A stretch of DNA of 64,000 nt from Hyphomonadaceae bacterium. Its GTDB lineage: Bacteria; Pseudomonadota; Alphaproteobacteria; Caulobacterales; Hyphomonadaceae. Below the pieces are notes generated by a model, which saw nothing but the letters and a program-made list of their open reading frames with translations, had not been told where the DNA came from and did not search any database. A program made the position numbers and the translations under genes. This document shows positions 53,334 through 61,894 of the stretch, one piece after another. The number at the start of each line of letters is the position of its first letter. Within the stretch, counting starts at the first letter, position 1. Location: assembly GCA_022844475.1 (NCBI GenBank), contig JALHLR010000005.1:1-64000 (forward strand). Direction: 5' to 3'.

Positions 53334-54113
53334 CTATCGAGGGGAAACTGCCACCCCACGAGCGCCCACGGAAGCGACATGCACGCGGCTGCGCCAGCGA
53401 TGCCAGACAAGAAAGATGCGAGGTCCGTCGACGAGGTACCGTTTCCACAGTCGTCCCGGTTCGGCCGCCAGCCGGTACAGCCACTCCAGCCTGTGGTCGC
53501 GAATCCATTGCGGTGCGCGCGCCGTCATGCCCGTCAGGAACTCCAGCGCCGCGCCGCAGCACACCGCAACGCCCGTGCAGTCGCCCGCGCGCCGCGCCTC
53601 ATGCGCGATAAGCTCCTGCTGCGGCGAGCCCACGGCGAGAAAAACGAACGGCGCCGGGTTTTCGCGGATGAACTGCACACAGGCCGCGCGGGCCGCTGGA
53701 TCATTGCGCAGTCTGGCCGGCGCGTCGAACCAGCGAATATCGAGGGTTGCGAACTGCCGCCGCAGGCGATCAACCAGTCTCTGCGTGCCCCCGATCACCA
53801 CTACGGGATCGGTCGCGCCAATGTGCTGACGGAACAGCTGCTCCACGATGTCGGCGCCAGGCGCCGCGGGCAGGTCGAGATAGGACGCATTGGCGAACGC
53901 TTCGAGAATGCGGCTGTCGCAGAGGTTCAGCCACGCATCGTCGTACAATCGCATCAATGCTGGCTCGCGATCGACACGAACCATGTGATCGACATTTGGC
54001 GTCGCGACATAGGCGAACGGGCCGAGCTTTCGCGCACGCATGGCGATCCTGCGCGCTGCCTCGTCCGCGTTCAGCGCGTCGAATTCCATGTCGAGGAAGA
54101 AGGTGCGACGCAT
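53334..54113 (-). CDS. WecG/TagA/CpsF family glycosyltransferase
   Basis: 259 residues, normal for the family. Signatures: P-N-V-D-H-M-V near 40 (T-P-N-x-x-x), L-N-L-C-D-S-R near 64, the G-G-T-Q-R-L-V-D-R nucleotide-sugar region near 110, and F-L-A-V-G-S-P-Q-Q-E near 160. These enzymes add ManNAc or related sugars to a lipid-linked acceptor during exopolysaccharide, enterobacterial common antigen or teichoic acid synthesis. No other glycan gene adjoins, so the polymer is unknown. SD GGAG precedes the ATG. Confidence 0.9.
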   Translation of the reverse strand: MRRTFFLDMEFDALNADEAARRIAMRARKLGPFAYVATPNVDHMVRVDREPALMRLYDDAWLNLCDSRILEAFANASYLDLPAAPGADIVEQLFRQHIGATDPVVVIGGTQRLVDRLRRQFATLDIRWFDAPARLRNDPAARAACVQFIRENPAPFVFLAVGSPQQELIAHEARRAGDCTGVAVCCGAALEFLTGMTARAPQWIRDHRLEWLYRLAAEPGRLWKRYLVDGPRIFLVWHRWRSRVHVASVGARGVAVSPR

Positions 54114-54182
54114 GCGGACGGCTCCACATGCAGGCTAGGGAAGCAGGGTTGAGGAACAGTTTCGTTGACCGAACAAAATTGC

Positions 54183-55283
54183 TCAAAATTCGTTTACATC
54201 TTGTTGGTTCGCCGCCTCGCGGCCGATGCCATATTTTCGCAAAAGCCCACGCATCTGGTGATAGCTGAGCCCCAGATGCTCGGCCGCCTTCTTCTGGTGG
54301 CCGTGGAATTTCTCCAGCGCCGCCTCGATCATCCGTTTCTCGAGCTCGGCGACGATTGCGTTGAAGTCCACCGGACCATCCGACTTCGCCGGCGCAACGA
54401 AGATCGACTCGACCATGACGGCTGCCTGCTGCGTCGGAGGCGCCGGGCCAGGGGGCGGGGTCGACAGGTCTTTCGCCGGACGCCAGGGCGAATTGAACGG
54501 ATCGAGCAGATCCACCGTCAGCGTCACCGGACCCAGCGGCGCGCCATTAGCCTGCGCCGCCATGGTGCGAAACGTCGCCCGCTCCGCCGCATTCCTCAGT
54601 TCACGGACATTCCCTGGCCAGGCATAACCGCACATCGCTTCCAGCGCCGTGCGCGACCAGCCCGGAAAATCGCCATCCAGCTCCCGCGCGATTCTCTGCC
54701 CGAAATGCTCTGCCAGCAGGATGATGTCCTCCGGCCGCGCCCGCAGCGGCGCAAGCGTGATGACGTCGAAGGCAAGTCGATCCAGCAGGTCAGGCCGAAA
54801 GCGCCCCTCGGCCGCCCGCGCGGGAAGGTCGACGTTCGTTGCCGCCACGATCCGCACATCAGTGGTGATCGTGTCCTCGCCGCCCAGCCGCTGGAACTGT
54901 CCGTACTCCACCACGCGCAGCAACTTCTCCTGAACCTGCATTGAGGCCGTCGCGATTTCGTCGAGGAACAGTGTGCCCCCGTCAGCCTGTTCGAACCGCC
55001 CCTGCCGCCGTTTTGTTGCGCCCGTGAACGCGCCGGCCTCATGCCCGAACAGTTCGGAATCCAGCAGGTCTTCCGACAGCGCCCCGCAATTCACCTTGAC
55101 GAACGGCTTGTCCCAGCGCGGGCTCAGATAGTGAAGGCGCTCGGCGATCAGCTCCTTGCCAGTCCCGCGCTCCCCGATCACCAGGATCGGCCGCTCGACA
55201 AAAGCCGCCAGCGAGACCCTTTCGAGGCTCTCTAGCCACGTCGCGGATTGTCCAATCAGCTCGGGAGGTGAGGGAGCAGCCAT
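54183..55283 (-). CDS. pspF: psp operon activator PspF (sigma-54 enhancer-binding protein)
   Basis: 366 residues with no N-terminal sensory domain, as in PspF. AAA+ core: Walker A G-E-R-G-T-G-K-E (37-44), the sigma-54-contacting G-A-F-T-G-A loop (84-89), Walker [10 protein letters not shown], and the [10 protein letters not shown] arginine-finger region. A Pro-rich linker (about 275-295) leads to a C-terminal Fis-type helix-turn-helix. In the known system PspA holds PspF inactive until the membrane is stressed. It is divergent from the psp operon. Confidence 0.93.
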
Positions 55284-55284
55284 G

Positions 55285-55343
55285 TGGCGAGAATTACCAC
55301 ATCTCAGCTTAAATCGCCAATCATTGAGTGGCGATTCTTACCA
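55285..55343. promoter_or_regulatory. two PspF-type enhancer repeats (UAS)
   Basis: TGGCGAGAATTACCA (55285-55299) and TGGCGATTCTTACCA (55329-55343) are near-identical 15-bp direct repeats 44 bp apart, about four helical turns. An inverted repeat AATCGCC/GGCGATT (55312-55336) overlaps the second. They lie 75-135 bp upstream of the sigma-54 promoter and abut the pspF start codon, so PspF binding could activate psp and repress pspF. Confidence 0.7.
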
Positions 55344-55417
55344 GAATACTTGCTTATCCACAGTGGGAAGCTTCAAAAACATCAATAATACAAGGGGAGG
55401 CATGGTTATCGAAAAAC

Positions 55418-55433
55418 TGGCATGGTGGTTGCA
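55418..55433 (+). promoter_or_regulatory. sigma-54 (-24/-12) promoter of the psp operon
   Basis: TGGCATG-GTGG-TTGCA matches the sigma-54 consensus TGGCAC/TG-N4-TTGCA/T. The invariant GG is at 55419-55420 and the GC at 55431-55432. Transcription should begin near 55444, about 37 bases before the first small ORF. The nearby PspF-type repeats fit activation by PspF. Confidence 0.88.
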
Positions 55434-55480
55434 ATCAACCATTCATGCCGGGGTCACACCGGCGACCACAGGAGCTAAAG

Positions 55481-55618
55481 ATGCGCTACTCCGACCACCG
55501 CGATCCCTACGAGAAGCCCAGCCCACTGGGACGTTTTGGAAGCTGGATGAGCCGGAGACCGTTCGAAAGCTGGGGTTTCTTTATCGCCGGCTTCCTGATC
55601 GCGCGCATCCTCTTCTGA
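55481..55618 (+). CDS. 45-residue membrane peptide, first gene of the psp operon
   Basis: Begins M-R-Y-S-D-H-R-D-P-Y-E-K and ends in one hydrophobic helix W-G-F-F-I-A-G-F-L-I-A-R-I-L-F; the first half is basic. SD AGGAG lies seven bases before the ATG, and the sigma-54 start is about 37 bases upstream, so translation is likely. It precedes pspA by 84 bases. Not the known PspD or PspE by sequence. Probably a Psp-associated bitopic peptide; exact role unknown. Confidence 0.7.
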   Translation: MRYSDHRDPYEKPSPLGRFGSWMSRRPFESWGFFIAGFLIARILF

Positions 55619-55702
55619 CCTCCCCAAACACCTCTTCATCGGCACAAGACCACCAACTCCAAGAAGACCATCCCCCGAGAAGGTTCTACGAAAGGTTCTG
55701 AT

Positions 55703-56416
55703 ATGGGCGTTTTCTCCCGTCTTTCCGACATCATCAACTCGAACATCAACGCGATGCTCGACAAGGCGGAGGATCCCGAGAAGATCGCCCGCCTGATCAT
55801 CCAGGAAATGGAAGACTGCCTCGTCGAGGTCCGCTCCGCCGCGGCCCGCTCGATGGCGGACAAGAAGGAATACGAGCGCGACATCTCGCAGCTCGAGCAG
55901 ACCCGCCTCGACTGGACAGCCAAGGCCGAGCTCGCCGTGGAAAAGGGGCGTGAAGATCTCGCCCGCGGCGCCCTCTCCGCCAAGCAGCGCGCCGAACGCG
56001 AGATCGACGGCCGCCGCCAGGCCCTGAAGGCGATCGAGGAAGTCTCGATCCGCCGCCAGGAAGACCTTGAGAAGCTGCAGGCGAAACTGGACGAGGCGAA
56101 GACGAAACATCGCGCGCTCGTCGTCCGTCGCGAAGCCGCCGAACAACGCATCGCGATGCGCTCGCGCATCGAGGTCAACAAGGTCGACGAGGCAATGCGC
56201 CGCTACGGCCAGATCGAGCGCAAGGTCGACGAGATGGAAGCCTATGCCGACCTGATAAACGTCGGCGATCGCTCGCTCGAAGCGCAGTTCCAGGAACTGG
56301 CCGCCGAAGAGTCGATCGAGAAGGAACTCGCCGAGATCAAGCGTCGCCGCAGCGGCGCCCCGTCTCCCGCTCCGGCGCCGGTGCGCCGCAAGACTGCCGA
56401 AGGTGAGGGCGCCTAA
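55703..56416 (+). CDS. pspA: phage shock protein A
   Basis: 237 residues, the standard PspA/Vipp1 length. The N-terminal amphipathic helix (G-V-F-S-R-L-S-D-I-I-N-S-N-I-N-A-M-L) binds stressed membranes. A long coiled coil follows (about 25-215, for example A-A-A-R-S-M-A-D-K-K-E-Y-E-R). PspA restrains PspF and forms ESCRT-III-like scaffolds that seal leaky inner membrane. Its stop overlaps the pspB ATG (TAATG). The tail is Pro/Ala-rich. Confidence 0.96.
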   Translation: MGVFSRLSDIINSNINAMLDKAEDPEKIARLIIQEMEDCLVEVRSAAARSMADKKEYERDISQLEQTRLDWTAKAELAVEKGREDLARGALSAKQRAEREIDGRRQALKAIEEVSIRRQEDLEKLQAKLDEAKTKHRALVVRREAAEQRIAMRSRIEVNKVDEAMRRYGQIERKVDEMEAYADLINVGDRSLEAQFQELAAEESIEKELAEIKRRRSGAPSPAPAPVRRKTAEGEGA

Positions 56417-56685
56417 TGGATGCGGAAGTGGCCATGGGCATGACAGTTGGCCTGGTGGCCATCGTCTCGCTCTTCGTGATCCTGCCGTGGATGATCCTCC
56501 ACTACATCTCGAAGAACCGTTCTTCGCGAAACCTCACCGAGGACGACGAAAGGATGCTCGAGGACCTCTGGCGCTCCGCCCGCACCATGGAGCGCCGCAT
56601 CGAGACCCTCGAGCGCCTGCTCGAACCTGACGCTGCTCCGCTCCGTCCGCGCCCGACACAATCCACCCGTGGGGACATCAACTGA
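56416..56685 (+). CDS. pspB: phage shock protein B
   Basis: 89 residues: one N-terminal membrane helix (about 8-32, L-V-A-I-V-S-L-F-V-I-L-P-W-M-I-L) and a cytoplasmic coil with D-E-R-M-L-E-D-L-W-R-S-A-R-T-M-E-R-R-I-E-T-L-E-R-L-L as two short runs, the PspB signature. With PspC it relays envelope stress by drawing PspA off PspF. It overlaps pspA and pspC by one base each. Its R-I-E-T-L-E-R-L coil resembles the start of the motif repeated in the downstream small genes. Confidence 0.94.
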   Translation: MDAEVAMGMTVGLVAIVSLFVILPWMILHYISKNRSSRNLTEDDERMLEDLWRSARTMERRIETLERLLEPDAAPLRPRPTQSTRGDIN

Positions 56686-57086
56686 TGCGCGATGATTTCA
56701 CTTCATCTCCGAACCCGAAGCGGCTCTACCGCTCGCGTGACAAGATAGTCGCCGGCGTCTGCGGCGGCATCGCCGAGCGCATGGGCTGGGACCCGACGAT
56801 CACCCGCATCGGCGCCGCCATTCTTCTTTTCACAGGCGTGGGTTTCATCATCCCGGTCTACTTCGTCGTCTGGGCCATCACGCCCTACCAGCCCTACCGT
56901 CCACGCAACCTGACGCCGGATGAAGAACGCTTCTGGACCTCGGTCTCTGACCGCCCCCGCGAAACGTTCTCGAACATCCGCTACAAGTTCAAGGACATGG
57001 ACGACCGCCTCGCCCGTATGGAGCGCGCCGTGACCTCCGAAGAGTGGAAACTCAAGCGCGAATTCCGCGACCTCGAAGGTCGCTAG
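56685..57086 (+). CDS. pspC: phage shock protein C
   Basis: 133 residues. The PspC domain spans about 13-75 (R-L-Y-R-S-R-D-K-I-V-A-G-V-C-G-G-I-A-E-R-M-G-W, then a hydrophobic hairpin with F-T-G-V-G-F-I-I-P-V-Y-F-V-V-W). The C-terminal cytoplasmic tail (about 107-133) reads R-L-A-R-M-E-R-A-V-T-S-E-E-W-K-L-K-R-E-F, which lines up closely with the repeat motif of the array that follows. Stress-sensing partner of PspB. Followed by a 96-base gap, then the array. Confidence 0.94.
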   Translation: MRDDFTSSPNPKRLYRSRDKIVAGVCGGIAERMGWDPTITRIGAAILLFTGVGFIIPVYFVVWAITPYQPYRPRNLTPDEERFWTSVSDRPRETFSNIRYKFKDMDDRLARMERAVTSEEWKLKREFRDLEGR

Positions 57087-57182
57087 ACTTCCCACGGCGC
57101 AGCGGCTGACAAATCCTCCCCAGGCAGTCGCCGCGCCGGACGACGAACCAAGACAGAGCCCCAGACACAACAGAGGGACAGC

Positions 57183-57440
57183 ATGGCTCGCGAATCTCGG
57201 ATCCGCCCACTTCAGACAAGACTGGCATGCGCCGCAGCGCTGCTCGTGACCGGACTTGCCGCCCTTGCAGTCGCTACCCGGTTTGGTGCTGTTCATCTCG
57301 ACGCTGGAGAGATGACGATCGTGTTCGGGGGCAGCGAGGATGGCCTTACCTTCGACGTCGCCTCGCGCGGCTGCCCGCCCGATTGCGACTTCGGCATCAA
57401 CTGGCGTCCTTCGCTGACGCTCACAGGAACGGGGTTGTAG
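57183..57440 (+). CDS. small membrane-anchored or exported protein, first gene after pspC
   Basis: 85 residues: basic N-terminus, one hydrophobic segment (about 14-32, L-A-C-A-A-A-L-L-V-T-G-L-A-A-L-A-V), then a short probably periplasmic region with a C-P-P-D-C motif. SD AGAGGGA lies six bases ahead of the ATG. It lacks the C-terminal coil of its neighbours. The stop abuts the next ATG with no gap, so it belongs to the same operon. Family not recognised; the cysteine pair suggests a redox-active or disulphide site. Confidence 0.7.
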   Translation: MARESRIRPLQTRLACAAALLVTGLAALAVATRFGAVHLDAGEMTIVFGGSEDGLTFDVASRGCPPDCDFGINWRPSLTLTGTGL

Positions 57441-57701
57441 ATGGAAGGCGTGATTGCAGTCGCCGCTCCCTTCGTGATGGTGGTCGCCATCGTCTGGCTT
57501 GTCCAGAACGGCAAGAACAAGCGCGCCGAAATGGCGTCCGGCGGCTCGCGCGAAGACCAGGCCATAATCGGCCAGATGCAGCATCAGATCGACAGGCTGA
57601 CCGATCGCGTCGCCGTCCTCGAACGTCTCGTCACCGACGACGACCGCCGCCTCTCGCGCGAGATCGATAGTCTCCGCGACCGCGGTCGTCCCCCGGTCTG
57701 A
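57441..57701 (+). CDS. Psp-array protein 1: membrane helix plus PspC-tail-like coil
   Basis: 86 residues. N-terminal membrane helix (about 4-22, I-A-V-A-A-P-F-V-M-V-V-A-I-V-W-L), then a coil ending in R-V-A-V-L-E-R-L-V-T-D-D-D-R-R-L-S-R-E-I. The same C-terminal signature recurs in eight other genes up to 60078 and in the PspC tail. Topology mirrors PspB (short N-terminus out, coil in the cytoplasm). Likely a Psp membrane-stress adaptor; function inferred only. Confidence 0.82.
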   Translation: MEGVIAVAAPFVMVVAIVWLVQNGKNKRAEMASGGSREDQAIIGQMQHQIDRLTDRVAVLERLVTDDDRRLSREIDSLRDRGRPPV

Positions 57702-57726
57702 CATCATCAACGGCAGGGAAAGGAGT

Positions 57727-57894
57727 ATGCTTATGCAGAAAGACGCCACGCCGGCCCCGGTTCTGGACAAGTCCGCACCCGACGGGAAGCAGCCGCGCTT
57801 TCTCGACGCAGATCCGCCGCGGCCTCCGCCGCTCGGCCGTCTGCGTACCGACGACGAGGCGCGTCTCGCCGCCGAAATCGAAAAGCTGCGTTAG
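57727..57894 (+). CDS. Psp-array protein 2: minimal 55-residue form
   Basis: A short gene with SD AGGAG seven bases before the ATG at 57733 (the ATG at 57727 is in frame, giving 55 residues; 53 from 57733). The N-terminus is Pro- and Lys-rich with no membrane helix. The C-terminus G-R-L-R-T-D-D-E-A-R-L-A-A-E-I-E-K-L-R keeps only the second half of the array motif. It could be a degenerate remnant or a regulatory peptide that competes with the other coils. Confidence 0.6.
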   Translation: MLMQKDATPAPVLDKSAPDGKQPRFLDADPPRPPPLGRLRTDDEARLAAEIEKLR

Positions 57895-57913
57895 GGGGGG
57901 CAAGGAGCAAGCC

Positions 57914-58183
57914 ATGGAGAACATCCCGGACATCGCATTCATAATCGGCGGACTGGTCATCATCGTTGTGGTGATCGGCTTCGTCTCGATCAAGGAAGAA
58001 AAGATCAAGGCGCAGGCCAAGGGCGTTCTCGAGGGCCAGGACCGCATCAACGCCGAAGCCGCCGCCGAGATCGCCCGCCTGCGCGCGCGCCTCGAAGTGG
58101 TCGAACGCCTGGTAACCGACGACGATCGCAAGCTGGCGCGCGAGATCGCACAACTGCGCGGCGAACAGGCCAGCGCAAGCTAG
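57914..58183 (+). CDS. Psp-array protein 3: membrane helix plus coil
   Basis: 89 residues. N-terminal membrane helix (about 7-26, I-A-F-I-I-G-G-L-V-I-I-V-V-V-I-G-F-V) followed by K-E-E-K-I-K-A-Q-A-K and a C-terminal coil R-L-E-V-V-E-R-L-V-T-D-D-D-R-K-L-A-R-E-I. SD AAGGAG before the ATG. Same architecture as array proteins 1, 5, 7, 8 and 9. Confidence 0.82.
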   Translation: MENIPDIAFIIGGLVIIVVVIGFVSIKEEKIKAQAKGVLEGQDRINAEAAAEIARLRARLEVVERLVTDDDRKLAREIAQLRGEQASAS

Positions 58184-58206
58184 TTGGCATTAGAGGGGAT
58201 CTGCGC

Positions 58207-58614
58207 ATGCACGGACAGAATTGCGGCGGCCACGGAAAGAACCGAGATGCCTGGCGCATCGAACGCGAGGCCAAACGTGCTGCCTGGCGCGCCCGCTTCG
58301 CCGCCCGCCGCGCGGGGCAGGGCGACTGGAGCCATTTCAAGGACCCGAAATTCTGGGGCCTGGACGCCGAAAGCATGAAGCAATGGGGCCTGAATTCCGA
58401 CTGGGGCATGGACGGCCAACAGACTGGTCCCAACCAAAGCGAAACCGGGCAGCTCAAGGCGCAGGTTGCCGAGATGGAAACGACGATCGATTCCATGCAG
58501 GAACGCATTGCGGTGCTCGAGCGCCTGATTCTGGATCTCGACAAGGAAGCACGGGAGTCCCGTCTCGCTGCAGAGATCGAGAAGCTCCGCGACCGGCCAG
58601 AGGGGGGCACGTGA
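58207..58614 (+). CDS. Psp-array protein 4: soluble, aromatic-rich, extended coil
   Basis: 135 residues, the longest in the array, with no membrane helix. The N-half is Arg/Lys/His-rich and aromatic (R-D-A-W-R-I-E-R-E-A-K-R-A-A-W-R-A-R-F, then F-K-D-P-K-F-W-G-L-D), suggesting nucleic acid, lipid-headgroup or protein contact. The C-half has E-R-I-A-V-L-E-R-L-I-L-D-L-D-K followed by a seven-residue insert and R-L-A-A-E-I-E-K-L-R, so the usual motif is lengthened. The stop overlaps the next ATG by one base. Confidence 0.78.
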   Translation: MHGQNCGGHGKNRDAWRIEREAKRAAWRARFAARRAGQGDWSHFKDPKFWGLDAESMKQWGLNSDWGMDGQQTGPNQSETGQLKAQVAEMETTIDSMQERIAVLERLILDLDKEARESRLAAEIEKLRDRPEGGT

Positions 58615-58892
58615 TGGAAGCGATCATGATTTCGATCGTCGTTGGCATCGCCGTCATAATGGCGGCGTCCATACAGATCATCCGCATGGCGCTTGCCCAT
58701 GAGGAGAAACGGCTGGCGCTGAAGGCGGGCGTGGGCGAGGCGGCCCGCCTCGAACAGATCGTGGCCGCAAACACCACCGAGATGGCCAAGCTTCGCCAGC
58801 GCGTCGAGGTGCTTGAGCGGCTCGCGACGGATGACGAGCGGCGCCTTTCGCACGAGATTGCGGGCCTGCAGGGCGGACGGACGCTGGCATGA
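58614..58892 (+). CDS. Psp-array protein 5: membrane helix plus coil
   Basis: 92 residues. Membrane helix (about 4-25, I-M-I-S-I-V-V-G-I-A-V-I-M-A-A-S-I-Q-I-I), a short coil start (E-E-K-R-L-A-L-K), then E-M-A-K-L-R-Q-R-V-E-V-L-E-R-L-A-T-D-D-E and R-R-L-S-H-E-I. The ATG overlaps the previous stop by one base (TGATG); an in-frame GTG one codon earlier is possible. The next gene overlaps by four bases. Confidence 0.8.
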   Translation: MEAIMISIVVGIAVIMAASIQIIRMALAHEEKRLALKAGVGEAARLEQIVAANTTEMAKLRQRVEVLERLATDDERRLSHEIAGLQGGRTLA

Positions 58893-59242
58893 TGAGCGGA
58901 CCGTTTGTGTTTCAGGCAAGAGTAGGTGTTGGAAGAAAAATGGACGCCAGCGACAGCAAGAGGGCCTGGGACGAACTGCGCGAGCTTGCCGGTTCGTCGA
59001 AGCGCGCGCGCCAGAAATCCAGGGATTTCTGGGAGGAAATGTTCGGCTCGGAGGACGCTCTGTTCTACGACGCCGAAGGCAATGACCGCACAGATCTGTT
59101 CCGCGCGCTCGTTGAACGAATTGACCAGACGACACGCCTTGCCGAAGGTCTTGCCGAACGCGTCGCGGTCCTTGAGCGCCTGGCCGTGCAGGACGAGGCG
59201 CGAATCGCGCTGGAGATCGAGAAGCTGAGGAAGGAAGGCTAG
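58889..59242 (+). CDS. Psp-array protein 6: soluble with coil
   Basis: 117 residues from the ATG overlapping the previous stop (ATGA); an in-frame ATG at 58940 with a GGAAGAA SD would give 100 residues and is also likely. No membrane helix. The middle is helical and basic then acidic (S-S-K-R-A-R-Q-K-S-R-D-F-W-E-E-M-F-G). The C-terminus R-V-A-V-L-E-R-L-A-V-Q-D-E-A-R-I-A-L-E-I keeps the array motif with altered charge positions. Confidence 0.78.
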   Translation: MMSGPFVFQARVGVGRKMDASDSKRAWDELRELAGSSKRARQKSRDFWEEMFGSEDALFYDAEGNDRTDLFRALVERIDQTTRLAEGLAERVAVLERLAVQDEARIALEIEKLRKEG

Positions 59243-59512
59243 ATGTCGACCGAAGTCATGTTCGTCGCGATCGCAGGCATGGGGACCTTCCTCCTCATGA
59301 TTCACATCATCGGCAAGGCGGAGACCGACAAGGCCCGCGTCAACGCCGCCGGCTCGGAAGACACGGAAGGTATGAAGCGGCTGCTCGCAGACAACACTGC
59401 CGAGATCTCGCGCTTGCGCGCGCGTGTGGAAGTGCTTGAACGGCTCGCAACGGACGGAGACCGCCGGCTCGCCGGCGACATCGAGCGACTTCGCTCGGAA
59501 CAAAGGGTCTAG
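59243..59512 (+). CDS. Psp-array protein 7: membrane helix plus coil
   Basis: 89 residues. Membrane helix (about 5-23, V-M-F-V-A-I-A-G-M-G-T-F-L-L-M-I-H-I-I), a polar spacer, then E-I-S-R-L-R-A-R-V-E-V-L-E-R-L-A-T-D-G-D and R-R-L-A-G-D-I. It begins immediately after the previous stop with no gap and is followed by a three-base gap. Very close in its coil to array proteins 5 and 8, suggesting recent duplication. Confidence 0.82.
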   Translation: MSTEVMFVAIAGMGTFLLMIHIIGKAETDKARVNAAGSEDTEGMKRLLADNTAEISRLRARVEVLERLATDGDRRLAGDIERLRSEQRV

Positions 59513-59515
59513 AAG

Positions 59516-59779
59516 ATGGAAAATGCAGGCGTCCTGATCCCGCTTCTCGGCATCATGTGTGGCATCATCGCCATCATCAGCAGCGCATACCTGAAGTCGC
59601 AGAAGATGAAGCTCGACATGGCGCAGGCCAATCGCCTCTCTTCGGCCTCCGAGTCCGAAATGATGAGCGAAATACAGCGGTTGAAGGACCGCGTCGCCGT
59701 GCTCGAAAGGCTAGCCACCGACGGCGACAGGAAACTCGCTGGCGAGATCGATCGCCTGCGCGATGACCGGAGGGTCTAG
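59516..59779 (+). CDS. Psp-array protein 8: membrane helix plus coil
   Basis: 87 residues. Membrane helix (about 5-26, G-V-L-I-P-L-L-G-I-M-C-G-I-I-A-I-I-S-S-A-Y), Lys/Met-rich spacer, and coil K-D-R-V-A-V-L-E-R-L-A-T-D-G-D-R-K-L-A-G followed by E-I-D-R-L-R. Three-base gap before it and two-base gap after it. Confidence 0.82.
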   Translation: MENAGVLIPLLGIMCGIIAIISSAYLKSQKMKLDMAQANRLSSASESEMMSEIQRLKDRVAVLERLATDGDRKLAGEIDRLRDDRRV

Positions 59780-59781
59780 GG

Positions 59782-60078
59782 ATGTTCGATCTCGATCTCT
59801 TTGAATTCATCATCGCGATTGTGCTGATCGGCTCCGTCGCCGGGATTGTCCAGCAGGGCATCAAGCTGGAGCGCGACAAGATCCGCGCCGGCCGCCGCGA
59901 GTCCGAAGGCGAGGCTGCCCAGCTTGGCGGCATCGTCTCCGACCTTCACAAGGATGTCGCCCGTCTCAAGGACCGCGTTCGCGTTCTCGAAAAGCTCGTC
60001 ACCGATGACGATCGCCGCCTGGCGGACGAGATCAACCGCCTGCGTCGCGAGGAGGCCGGTCCACGCCCGGGCGCTTGA
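59782..60078 (+). CDS. Psp-array protein 9: membrane helix plus coil, last of the array
   Basis: 98 residues. Acidic start M-F-D-L-D-L-F-E-F, membrane helix (about 8-24, F-I-I-A-I-V-L-I-G-S-V-A-G-I-V), then the coil D-R-V-R-V-L-E-K-L-V-T-D-D-D-R-R-L-A-D-E followed by I-N-R-L-R-R-E. It ends one base before the mnmC stop on the other strand, so array transcripts must read into mnmC until a terminator is met (see the hairpin at 60258). Confidence 0.82.
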   Translation: MFDLDLFEFIIAIVLIGSVAGIVQQGIKLERDKIRAGRRESEGEAAQLGGIVSDLHKDVARLKDRVRVLEKLVTDDDRRLADEINRLRREEAGPRPGA

Positions 60079-60079
60079 A

Positions 60080-61894
60080 CTACAGTCTCCCGCGCCGCAT
60101 CGCGCGGGCTCGGAATCGCCCGGGTTCAAGGCATTCGGCGACGTACGCCTCCACCGGCGAGGGCTCACCGAACGTCTCAGATGCAACTTTCTCGGCAAGC
60201 AGTGGCCCCCAAAGAAAGCCACGTGAGCCGAGGCCGCCGATCAGGCGGTGACGCTCTAAAGGCGCCGGAGTGCCGTCCGGCGCCTTTTCCTTGCCCGGCG
60301 CCGCCCCCGCAAACGGCAACCGATCCTGCGTCGTCGCACGCACCGCGGCGCGCGCTCCAGTTGCTGGAGCAGCCCTCATCCTGAAGGATCGCGAAGCGAT
60401 CGTATTGAAGGACGAGGGCGGGCTCACCATCGCCTCCACATCCGGCCGCAACCGCGCCAGGACATCAAGATTGTGCGCGCTCGCCGCCTCACTCACCCGC
60501 GGCGCGCCATCGGCCGCCTCGAACGTCGCGCCGAACACGATCTGCCCGAACGCCTCCACGGCGTACCCGCCATCCGCAACAGCCCGCGCCACGCCATCCG
60601 CCGCAACCCAATCCACCTGACCCAACCGCCCCTCAATCGCCGGCGAGTCCGAGCCAACAATTTCCGCGGCGCCCATCCCCGCACACACCACGACCAGGTC
60701 CGCATCGAGCTCATCGACTGACGTCACACGTGCGCCAAACCTCACCGCCGCACCCGCTACCAGTTGCGGTAGCGCAGCCTCGGGCCGCACCGCCACAGCG
60801 CCCAGGTGGCGAAGCCCGGCGCCCTCTGCACGCAGCAGCGTCTCGTCCAGCGGCGGATCGGCCATCAGTTTCGCAAACCGCGCCACCTCCCTCTCGCCAC
60901 GGGGCAAATGCACCGCGTCCAGCACCTGCACGGCATCGGCGCCCAGCTCGGAATAGAACCGCCGCGCATAAAGCCACGCCTCCAGCAGCGCCCGCGCCGC
61001 CGGCCCATCGGCTGCATCCAGCCGCGGCATCACCAGCGCAGTCGGATTGCCGCTCGCGCCCGCGCCGAGCTGGTCCGCCTGTTCGTAAACTGTCACCGCA
61101 CATCCGCGCCGGACAAACGCCCGTGCCGCGCACGCCCCCGCAATCCCGCCGCCGATGATCGCCACACGCTTCGGCCCCGCCGCACGCGGAGCACCCGCCG
61201 CAACCAGCCGCGCCTCCAGCCGCTCCTTCTTGCGCCCATGGCCCGGCACCTTGGCCACCTCAAAGCCCACGGCTTGGAGGTTGCGCCGCACATGACCCGC
61301 CACCGTATACGTCGCCGCCCGCGCGCCCGGGGCGCACATGCGCGCGACATGGCCCAGCACCTCCGCCGACCACATCTCGGGGTTCTTCGCCGGTGCAAAG
61401 CCATCGAGAAACCATGCATCGCATTGCGCCTGAGCCTCCGCGACAGCCGCTCCAATGTCATCGATATGCAGCGTCAGCGTCACGCCATCGCCCAGCACGA
61501 TGCGTTGCACACCGCGCGCCCGCTGTGGCCACTTGTCCCGCAGCTGCGCCGACAACGCCGCCAGCTCCGGCCAGCCCGCATGCACGCGCGCCGCCGCCCT
61601 GCACGGCATCAGCAAGCCTTCGAACGAGAGAACATCCAGCCGCGCCGTCACGCTCGGTCGATGCGCCCGCCACAGCTCCCACAGCGCCAGCAGGTTCAGC
61701 CCCGTCCCGAACCCAAGCTCGCCGACAAGGAACTGTTCGCGTCCCGCCCACGCTTCGGGAAGCCCGCATCCACCGAGAAAAACGGCGCGCTTCTCATCGA
61801 GTCCTTCACCGGAGAAATACACATCGCCATGCCCGCGCGCGAATGGCAGCGTGTCGGTGAATTCCAGGTCCGGCAGGGGTGGCAGGCGCGGCAT
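60080..61894 (-). CDS. mnmC: bifunctional tRNA modification enzyme MnmC
   Basis: 604 residues from ATG 61894, which overlaps the ubiG stop (TGATG); a 21-codon upstream extension is rejected. The N-terminal methyltransferase domain holds E-L-G-F-G-T-G-L-N-L-L and F-L-D-G-F-A-P-A-K-N-P-E-M-W. The C-terminal FAD-dependent oxidoreductase domain holds V-A-I-I-G-G-G-I-A-G-A near residue 245. Together they finish the mnm5 group of U34 in tRNAs. The C-terminal part carries two extra peptide stretches (near 60258-60288 and 60354-60418) that correspond to palindromic DNA. Confidence 0.94.
   Translation of the reverse strand: MPRLPPLPDLEFTDTLPFARGHGDVYFSGEGLDEKRAVFLGGCGLPEAWAGREQFLVGELGFGTGLNLLALWELWRAHRPSVTARLDVLSFEGLLMPCRAAARVHAGWPELAALSAQLRDKWPQRARGVQRIVLGDGVTLTLHIDDIGAAVAEAQAQCDAWFLDGFAPAKNPEMWSAEVLGHVARMCAPGARAATYTVAGHVRRNLQAVGFEVAKVPGHGRKKERLEARLVAAGAPRAAGPKRVAIIGGGIAGACAARAFVRRGCAVTVYEQADQLGAGASGNPTALVMPRLDAADGPAARALLEAWLYARRFYSELGADAVQVLDAVHLPRGEREVARFAKLMADPPLDETLLRAEGAGLRHLGAVAVRPEAALPQLVAGAAVRFGARVTSVDELDADLVVVCAGMGAAEIVGSDSPAIEGRLGQVDWVAADGVARAVADGGYAVEAFGQIVFGATFEAADGAPRVSEAASAHNLDVLARLRPDVEAMVSPPSSFNTIASRSFRMRAAPATGARAAVRATTQDRLPFAGAAPGKEKAPDGTPAPLERHRLIGGLGSRGFLWGPLLAEKVASETFGEPSPVEAYVAECLEPGRFRARAMRRGRL
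60258..60288. terminator. perfect 12-bp hairpin with flanking A and T runs inside mnmC
   Basis: AAAGGCGCCGGA pairs with TCCGGCGCCTTT around a 6-base loop, and the plus strand continues TT. It has the form of a bidirectional intrinsic terminator. It lies 180 bases past the end of the Psp array on the plus strand and codes for a Lys/Pro-rich stretch of MnmC on the minus strand. It could end array transcripts while being read through, or act as an mnmC attenuator. Confidence 0.6.
60354..60418. repeat. palindromic repeat element within the mnmC reading frame
   Basis: The core 60373-60418 starts CCCTCATCCTGAAGGATCGC and ends AAGGACGAGGG. Its outer 10-bp arms CCCTCATCCT/AGGACGAGGG pair with one mismatch, and the inner arms GATCGC/GCGATC pair perfectly. 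A second perfect hairpin GCTCCAG-TTG-CTGGAGC (60354-60370) adjoins. Elements of this CCCTCATCCT type are frequent REP-like palindromes in alphaproteobacterial intergenic DNA. Here it is in frame and adds about 20 residues to MnmC. Only one copy was seen in this window. Confidence 0.7.

Follow-up and report, generated by a model that had tools for sequence, protein, structure and literature searches.

Small-gene array of the psp locus

The window analyzed here, i.e., the whole 64,000-nucleotide stretch of contig JALHLR010000005.1, belongs to a draft genome of a Hyphomonadaceae bacterium (3.17 Mb in 50 contigs, 78% complete) and contains a psp locus. Downstream of pspA, pspB, and pspC, an array of nine small genes was found on the + strand at 57441-60078, encoding proteins of 55-135 residues. 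The full members end in a tail that resembles the C-terminus of PspC, and this tail is joined to different N-terminal parts.

All nine open reading frames (ORFs) listed in an earlier note on this DNA were recovered at the starts given there, each with an ATG codon (9/9). The junctions measure, in order, +25, +19, +23, -1, -4, 0, +3, and +2 bases. The note had described most of them as overlaps or gaps of 0-3 bases, which is true for five of the eight. Its division into six proteins with an N-terminal membrane helix, two soluble proteins (genes 4 and 6), and one minimal protein (gene 2) agreed with the hydropathy analysis. Genes 1, 3, 5, 7, 8, and 9 encode one N-terminal hydrophobic helix (best 17-residue mean hydropathy 2.2-3.2), so that 6/9 proteins have a membrane helix followed by a coil, as PspB does, and the other three have no helix. 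From the acidic or neutral N-terminus and the basic residues behind the helix, the tail is predicted to be cytoplasmic, with the N-terminus outside.

The common end signature claimed for all nine was present in most genes. However, gene 2 retains only its second half, gene 4 has a short insertion inside it, and gene 6 reads VQDEARIALEI where the signature has TDDDRRLxxEI. Gene 2 is possibly a remnant. Among the soluble proteins, the predicted N-terminal helix of the gene 4 type (S1) is basic, with a charge of +5 to +7, and its hydrophobic moment is high (shuffle p 0.002-0.03 in the four of 11 sequences that were tested). Such a basic amphipathic helix could serve as a membrane-surface anchor. 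Over four genomes, including two close ones, the mean column identity of the gene 6 type (S2) was 83%.

The profile used for testing was a hidden Markov model (HMM), for which 17 proteins were taken from three other genera. With this HMM, the nine array proteins scored 13-74 bits, and none of the 1000 full shuffles of a protein, nor any of the 1000 that retained its first 30 residues, reached the protein's own score. The earlier note had asked for a profile better than shuffled sequences, and this was obtained for 9/9. In the own genome, at 78% completeness, only two matches besides the nine array genes appeared at E <= 10, namely the tail of PspC (E 0.7) and a weak match elsewhere (E 0.8).

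Similarity of the tail to PspC

Profile comparison was built on the membrane-type members, and gene 2 holds half of the tail. The array tail matched the PspC C-terminus over 37 columns without gaps, with a score of 31.3, and the best of 60 column-permuted controls reached 11.3. The score was 22.5 against the PspB coil (permuted controls up to 6.2) and 5.8 against PspA. The counterpart in the PspC of the window is its C-terminal tail RLARMERAVTSEEWKLKREFRDL. In E. coli, PspC ends with RLREMERYVTSDTFTLRSRFRQL, for which the counterpart in array gene 1 is RVAVLERLVTDDDRRLSREIDSL. The earlier idea of a shared coil with variable N-termini was retained in its layout, but the common part is not a generic coil; it resembles the PspC C-terminus. 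This resemblance makes PspA the likely docking partner.

The likeness was also found within lineages. The mean score of PspC tail against array tail was 28-43 inside each of five lineages, and column shuffling (300 per lineage) gave 18.5 at best. Co-evolution of the PspC and array tails by lineage was sought in the same five lineages and gave no sign.

When full-length membrane-type members were compared, the score was 43.3 against PspB and 30.7 against PspC. The array proteins share with PspB the N-terminal membrane helix, the coil behind it, and the operon, but they end in a PspC-type tail, lack the helix in three cases, and occur in up to nine copies. Gene 1 alone (1/9) passed the cut-off of the Pfam PspB family PF06667. 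None of the nine passed that of TIGR02976 (best 38.6 against 51.7), and sub-threshold matches to this model were seen in 8/9. Sub-threshold matches to the PspC model TIGR02978 were found in 3/9 and ended at the last model position. Unlike PspC, with which they share the tail, the array proteins have no PF04024 domain (0/9 in the Pfam scan). Pfam and NCBIfam were searched with 15 members, of which gene 1 alone exceeded any PspB or PspC cut-off, and none of six members from outside psp arrays (L069, L149, L150, L152, L153, and L163) exceeded a Pfam or NCBIfam cut-off.

Organization of the psp locus

The features are listed in Table 1. The pspF gene is divergent; the + strand then carries the sigma-54 site, a 45-amino-acid (aa) ORF, pspA, pspB, pspC, an 85-aa gene, and the nine array genes. 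In the sigma-54 scan of the window, about one chance match was expected at <=1 mismatch. A sigma-54 site with 11-12 of 12 consensus bases was present upstream of pspA in 15/15 psp loci having pspF and pspA. The attachment of the array to the psp operon behind such a site, as proposed earlier, was supported. Its position directly after pspC was not, because the conserved 85-aa gene intervenes.

In a pattern scan of 54000-61000, no terminator-like site was found on the + strand between the sigma-54 site and the array end, and the only hairpin of this kind on that strand begins at 60270. The hairpin is weak evidence because the total number of pattern matches was near that in shuffled sequences. 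Judged from sequence, the array has the placement of a Psp regulon member, i.e., downstream of a pspF-type sigma-54 site, together with pspABC, and with no terminator-like site intervening.

The 85-aa gene had homologs in 15 of the 16 other array loci of the family, and the sixteenth (L055) is cut by a contig end. It matched no Pfam family, and no NCBIfam model above its cut-off. The 45-aa ORF, with the motif RPxESWGFFxAGFxIARIxF, lies between the sigma-54 site and pspA, and the 14 other loci with its homologs are from Hyphomonadaceae. It had no Pfam or NCBIfam match, and is possibly an unnamed Psp protein.

Table 1. Features of the psp locus and the small-gene array (window coordinates)
Feature	Position	Strand	Remarks
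pspF, sigma-54 activator	54183..55283	-	TIGR02974, 471.9 bits (cut-off 443.55)
sigma-54 promoter site TGGCATGGTGGTTGCA	55418..55433	+	0 mismatches; sole match in window
45-aa membrane ORF ahead of pspA, unnamed, conserved	55481..55618	+	homologs in 14 other psp loci
pspA	55703..56416	+	TIGR02977, 264.5 bits (cut-off 242.95)
pspB	56416..56685	+	TIGR02976, 71.6 bits (cut-off 51.7)
pspC	56685..57086	+	TIGR02978, 108.3 bits (cut-off 104)
85-aa gene between pspC and array, N-terminal hydrophobic stretch and CPPxCxFxINWRP motif	57183..57440	+	
array gene 1, membrane helix and PspC-type tail	57441..57701	+	PF06667, 29.7 bits (cut-off 25.6)
array gene 2, minimal, second half of tail only	57727..57894	+	55 aa; also in nearest species G005
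array gene 3, membrane helix and tail	57914..58183	+	
array gene 4, soluble type S1: basic helix, linker, tail	58207..58614	+	
array gene 5, membrane helix and tail	58614..58892	+	
array gene 6, soluble type S2: conserved N-terminal part and tail	58889..59242	+	
array gene 7, membrane helix and tail	59243..59512	+	
array gene 8, membrane helix and tail	59516..59779	+	
array gene 9, FEF type, membrane helix and tail	59782..60078	+	
terminator-like hairpin	60270..60283	+	sole one on + strand within 54000-61000 (pattern scan)

Arrays in the family of the window

Similar arrays in related genomes had been expected and were found in the own family, and also widely in a second family described below. 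In the own genus, 12/15 genomes matched the profile, and the remaining three also had no pspA. Among 60 relatives and the own genome, 36/61 matched, and the other families of the order gave two weak matches in 24. The relatives with names (11 loci) were Hyphomonadaceae or unclassified alphaproteobacterial assemblies. The twelve loci of the genus had 9 (the window), 8, 6, 5, 2, 5, 4, 5, 6, 2, 6, and 1 members, and loci in three other genera of the family had 6, 3, 2, 3, and 3; contig ends truncate some of these 17 loci, and for two the contig carries no pspABC. The types kept their positions: the gene-1 type stood first, S1 stood second in 9 of the 11 loci having it, and the FEF type stood last in 8 of the 12 genus loci, two of the 12 being cut by contig ends. 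In the locus L064 (8121-8973), three consecutive ORFs between pspA and pspC matched PspB, alongside a six-gene array.

The age of the paralogs was examined with 50 members from ten genus genomes, excluding G005 (near-identical to the own genome) and G002 (one gene). In 50/50 cases, the N-terminal part had its nearest counterpart in another genome rather than among its own paralogs; for the tails this held in 44/50, with six ties. The paralogs are therefore older than the genus. One family diversified by duplication, as the earlier note had suggested, fits these data with the duplication dated before the genus, and recent tandem duplication was rejected.

The diversity was also maintained. In ten cross-species pairs, the ratio of nonsynonymous to synonymous divergence (dN/dS) was 0.1-0.4, with dS >1 in several. 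Against G005, dN/dS was <=0.43 in 7/8 genes, and gene 5 gave 1.29 on seven changes. The total was 25.5 nonsynonymous and 27.5 synonymous changes (binomial p 0.0006-0.00005, with an assumed neutral share of 0.72-0.74). At the position of array gene 3, G005 (locus L055) has only a 29-aa ORF, which indicates that array members were lost as well as gained.

Arrays in a second family

A class sample of 385 genomes gave 14 matches at E 0.001. Apart from the own genome, only four genomes, all from one other family (f17), had three or more matches; in this sample and in the phylum sample below, at most 13 first-look candidates were scored per genome. The family f17 is probably Sphingomonadaceae, judging from the 96 genera that it spans in the sample and from a named Sphingomonas record. 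In f17, 138/149 genomes matched at E 0.01, with up to seven matches each. The 24 f17 loci that were read, i.e., four from the class sample and 20 from the f17 matches listed, all had 3-8 members after pspC on the same strand. Confinement of the arrays to the family of the window was therefore rejected.

The named record is an 880-kb plasmid record of Sphingomonas parapaucimobilis (NZ_CP155749.1), with pspF, pspA, pspB, and pspC followed by three array-type genes, all annotated as "hypothetical protein". A fourth hypothetical gene after pspC in this species (L169:5818-6486) has no tail and appeared by eye to be unrelated to the array.

In the phylum sample, 53/398 genomes matched, and 97/118 matched in a sample of the order of f17. 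Of 20 stretches of 6-7 kb taken from these two samples, 17 contained a relative but no psp gene. In L162 and L164, the relative was behind pspC, and in L151 the match was PspC itself. Some of the relatives away from psp belong to a second class, which we take to be Gammaproteobacteria.

Co-occurrence with pspA

In the phylum sample, pspA (TIGR02977) was found in 76/398 genomes, and in 51 of the 53 positives. The two without it have weak, partial matches. They are among seven genomes that were set aside, in which the matches stop at model position 65-66 and are PspB-like or partial. For the tail-bearing matches, pspA was present in 46/46 genomes, against 30/352 of the others. In 27 of these 46 genomes the best match was read as unlinked to pspA, i.e., on another contig or at least 79 kb away, and pspA was still present in 27/27.

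In 105 genomes of the own family, both were found in 97, neither in four, the tail family only in two, and pspA only in two, although not every match in these counts was checked as an array member rather than PspB. Thus, 97/99 genomes with the tail family have pspA. The two exceptions are 85 and 87% complete, and the four discordant genomes 83-90%.

Among 80 chosen genomes of the f17 order, pspA was found in 47/49 positives, one of the 47 being a partial match below the cut-off, and in 12/31 negatives; the two misses are 62 and 67% complete. Within f17 itself, it was found in 13/13 chosen positives (three with weak matches) and in 2/11 negatives. Accordingly, 9/11 match-negative f17 genomes also had no pspA, and these are spread over seven genera. 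The dependence is near-complete in one direction, i.e., the tail family hardly occurs without pspA, whereas pspA occurs without the tail family.

Possible function of the array

It is reasonable to consider the array proteins, with somewhat better than even probability, as satellite adaptors of PspA, through which several membrane inputs would reach one PspA/PspF switch. The array proteins would be made together with pspABC from the sigma-54/PspF promoter. Each full member would mount a PspC-like, PspA-holding tail on a distinct anchor, i.e., six single membrane helices and two soluble modules, and the array would thereby offer PspA several membrane addresses with the same kind of hold at each. 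A disturbance felt by any of the anchors could expose its tail, and the exposed tail could draw PspA off PspF and recruit it to that site. That the different helices act as sensors is a guess. For PspC itself, leucine-zipper mutants in E. coli lose the PspA interaction (PMC3068692), and in the on state its C-terminal cytoplasmic domain binds PspA and frees PspF (PMC5596341).

Several points weigh against the adaptor role. PspB, with a similar coil, was reported without direct PspA binding in the part of PMC3068692 covered here. The same part leaves the topology of the PspC C-terminal portion open, with a periplasmic prediction and a proposed switch, so that a cytoplasmic tail is not certain. 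PspA docking by the array tails is a prediction whose support comes from sequences. AlphaFold models of gene 1 (43 sequences) and S1 (11 sequences) gave long helices of low confidence (pTM 0.34 and 0.28), and a fold search was therefore omitted. The PspC and array tails showed no lineage-specific matching, as own-lineage similarity was highest in only 1/5 lineages. The frequent occurrence of pspA without the family, in the 30 phylum-sample genomes and the 12 of 31 f17-order negatives, indicates that the family is dispensable for the Psp response. In addition, the co-occurrence counts are not phylogenetically independent, they partly reflect the loss of one operon as a whole where the genes are linked, and the limit of 13 scored candidates makes absences in the class and phylum samples less sure.

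Other explanations were weighed on the same evidence. The array proteins might be inputs of the PspB type, which pair with PspC and with each other through membrane helices and coils and shift PspC between on and off with no PspA contact. The whole-protein profile is closest to PspB, gene 1 exceeds the Pfam PspB cut-off, and for PspB both self-association and binding to PspC, without binding to PspA, were reported (PMC3068692). Nevertheless, the stretch after the coil fits PspC better than PspB and 3/9 proteins have no membrane helix, so this explanation was considered unlikely. It is more doubtful still that the array proteins are brakes, i.e., decoys whose tails cap PspA polymers or bind PspA in competition with PspC, shutting down the response from the end of the operon. 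The likeness to PspC and the downstream position in the presumed operon would suit such decoys, which have no obvious need for six distinct membrane helices, each conserved between species.

A mixed coiled-coil scaffold among the array proteins, protecting the envelope while PspA is merely co-regulated, would account for the common coil and for the long helices in the low-confidence AlphaFold models. It was judged improbable to a greater degree than the brakes, since the unlinked and often single relatives have no array partners and pspA still accompanied them in all 27 sampled genomes. Chance likeness among generic small coiled-coil ORFs, to which the short sequences, the coiled-coil composition, and several sub-threshold matches to unrelated coils would point, has a negligible probability, as the N-termini are kept between species and a generic origin was rejected both by the 2000 shuffles per protein with the other-genera profile and by the PspA control of the profile comparison.

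Relation to known Psp systems

In the textbook arrangement, PspB and PspC are present as one protein each. Ravi et al. 2024 (PMC11237479) mentioned, in one clause each, PspB duplicates in psp operons and a divergent C-terminal PspB on PspC. The extra PspB genes and the PspB-like end of PspC correspond to the present findings, but section 17 and the other passages covered, as distinct from the supplements and the web application, are silent on large arrays, on soluble members, on positional types, and on unlinked relatives. Several copies of PspC or PspA per genome were reported in PMC9239133. The idea of several PspC inputs integrating different stimuli is common to that report and the adaptor proposal, but the multiple copies there are PspC-domain proteins.

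In the titles, abstract beginnings, and passages covered by a literature search, with subscription papers and supplements outside its scope, no description of such arrays was found. In the text covered, the Zymomonas papers have pspABC responding to ethanol or xylose and name no array gene, and the Novosphingobium and Qipengyuania papers mention psp genes merely in passing.

The chances are about even that these genes constitute an unnamed family of PspC-tail adaptors that makes Psp a many-input system. In two alphaproteobacterial families it would form arrays of up to nine genes, and unlinked members would occur in two or more classes; every member would bring PspA, a bacterial ESCRT-III, to a different membrane site. 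How membrane damage is sensed by PspA and how PspA is steered to it is an open question. The array has a big meaning in this respect because nature provides in it a set of minimal proteins that combine an anchor with a presumed PspA-docking tail and are kept distinct across species. With single members swapped or deleted in turn, both stimulus specificity and the recruitment of PspA could be tested directly.

Relatives away from psp loci

Six loci in six genera, one of them the own genus (L066, L067, L068, L069, L070, and L076), have one or two array relatives away from psp. Their neighbours, recognized by eye, include what we take to be a dut gene in 5/6 loci and a Pif1-like helicase gene in 5/6. 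Two array-type genes were placed side by side away from psp at L152:2468-3017, L158:2969-3489, and L159:2898-3398, and such a pair is a possible first step of an array.

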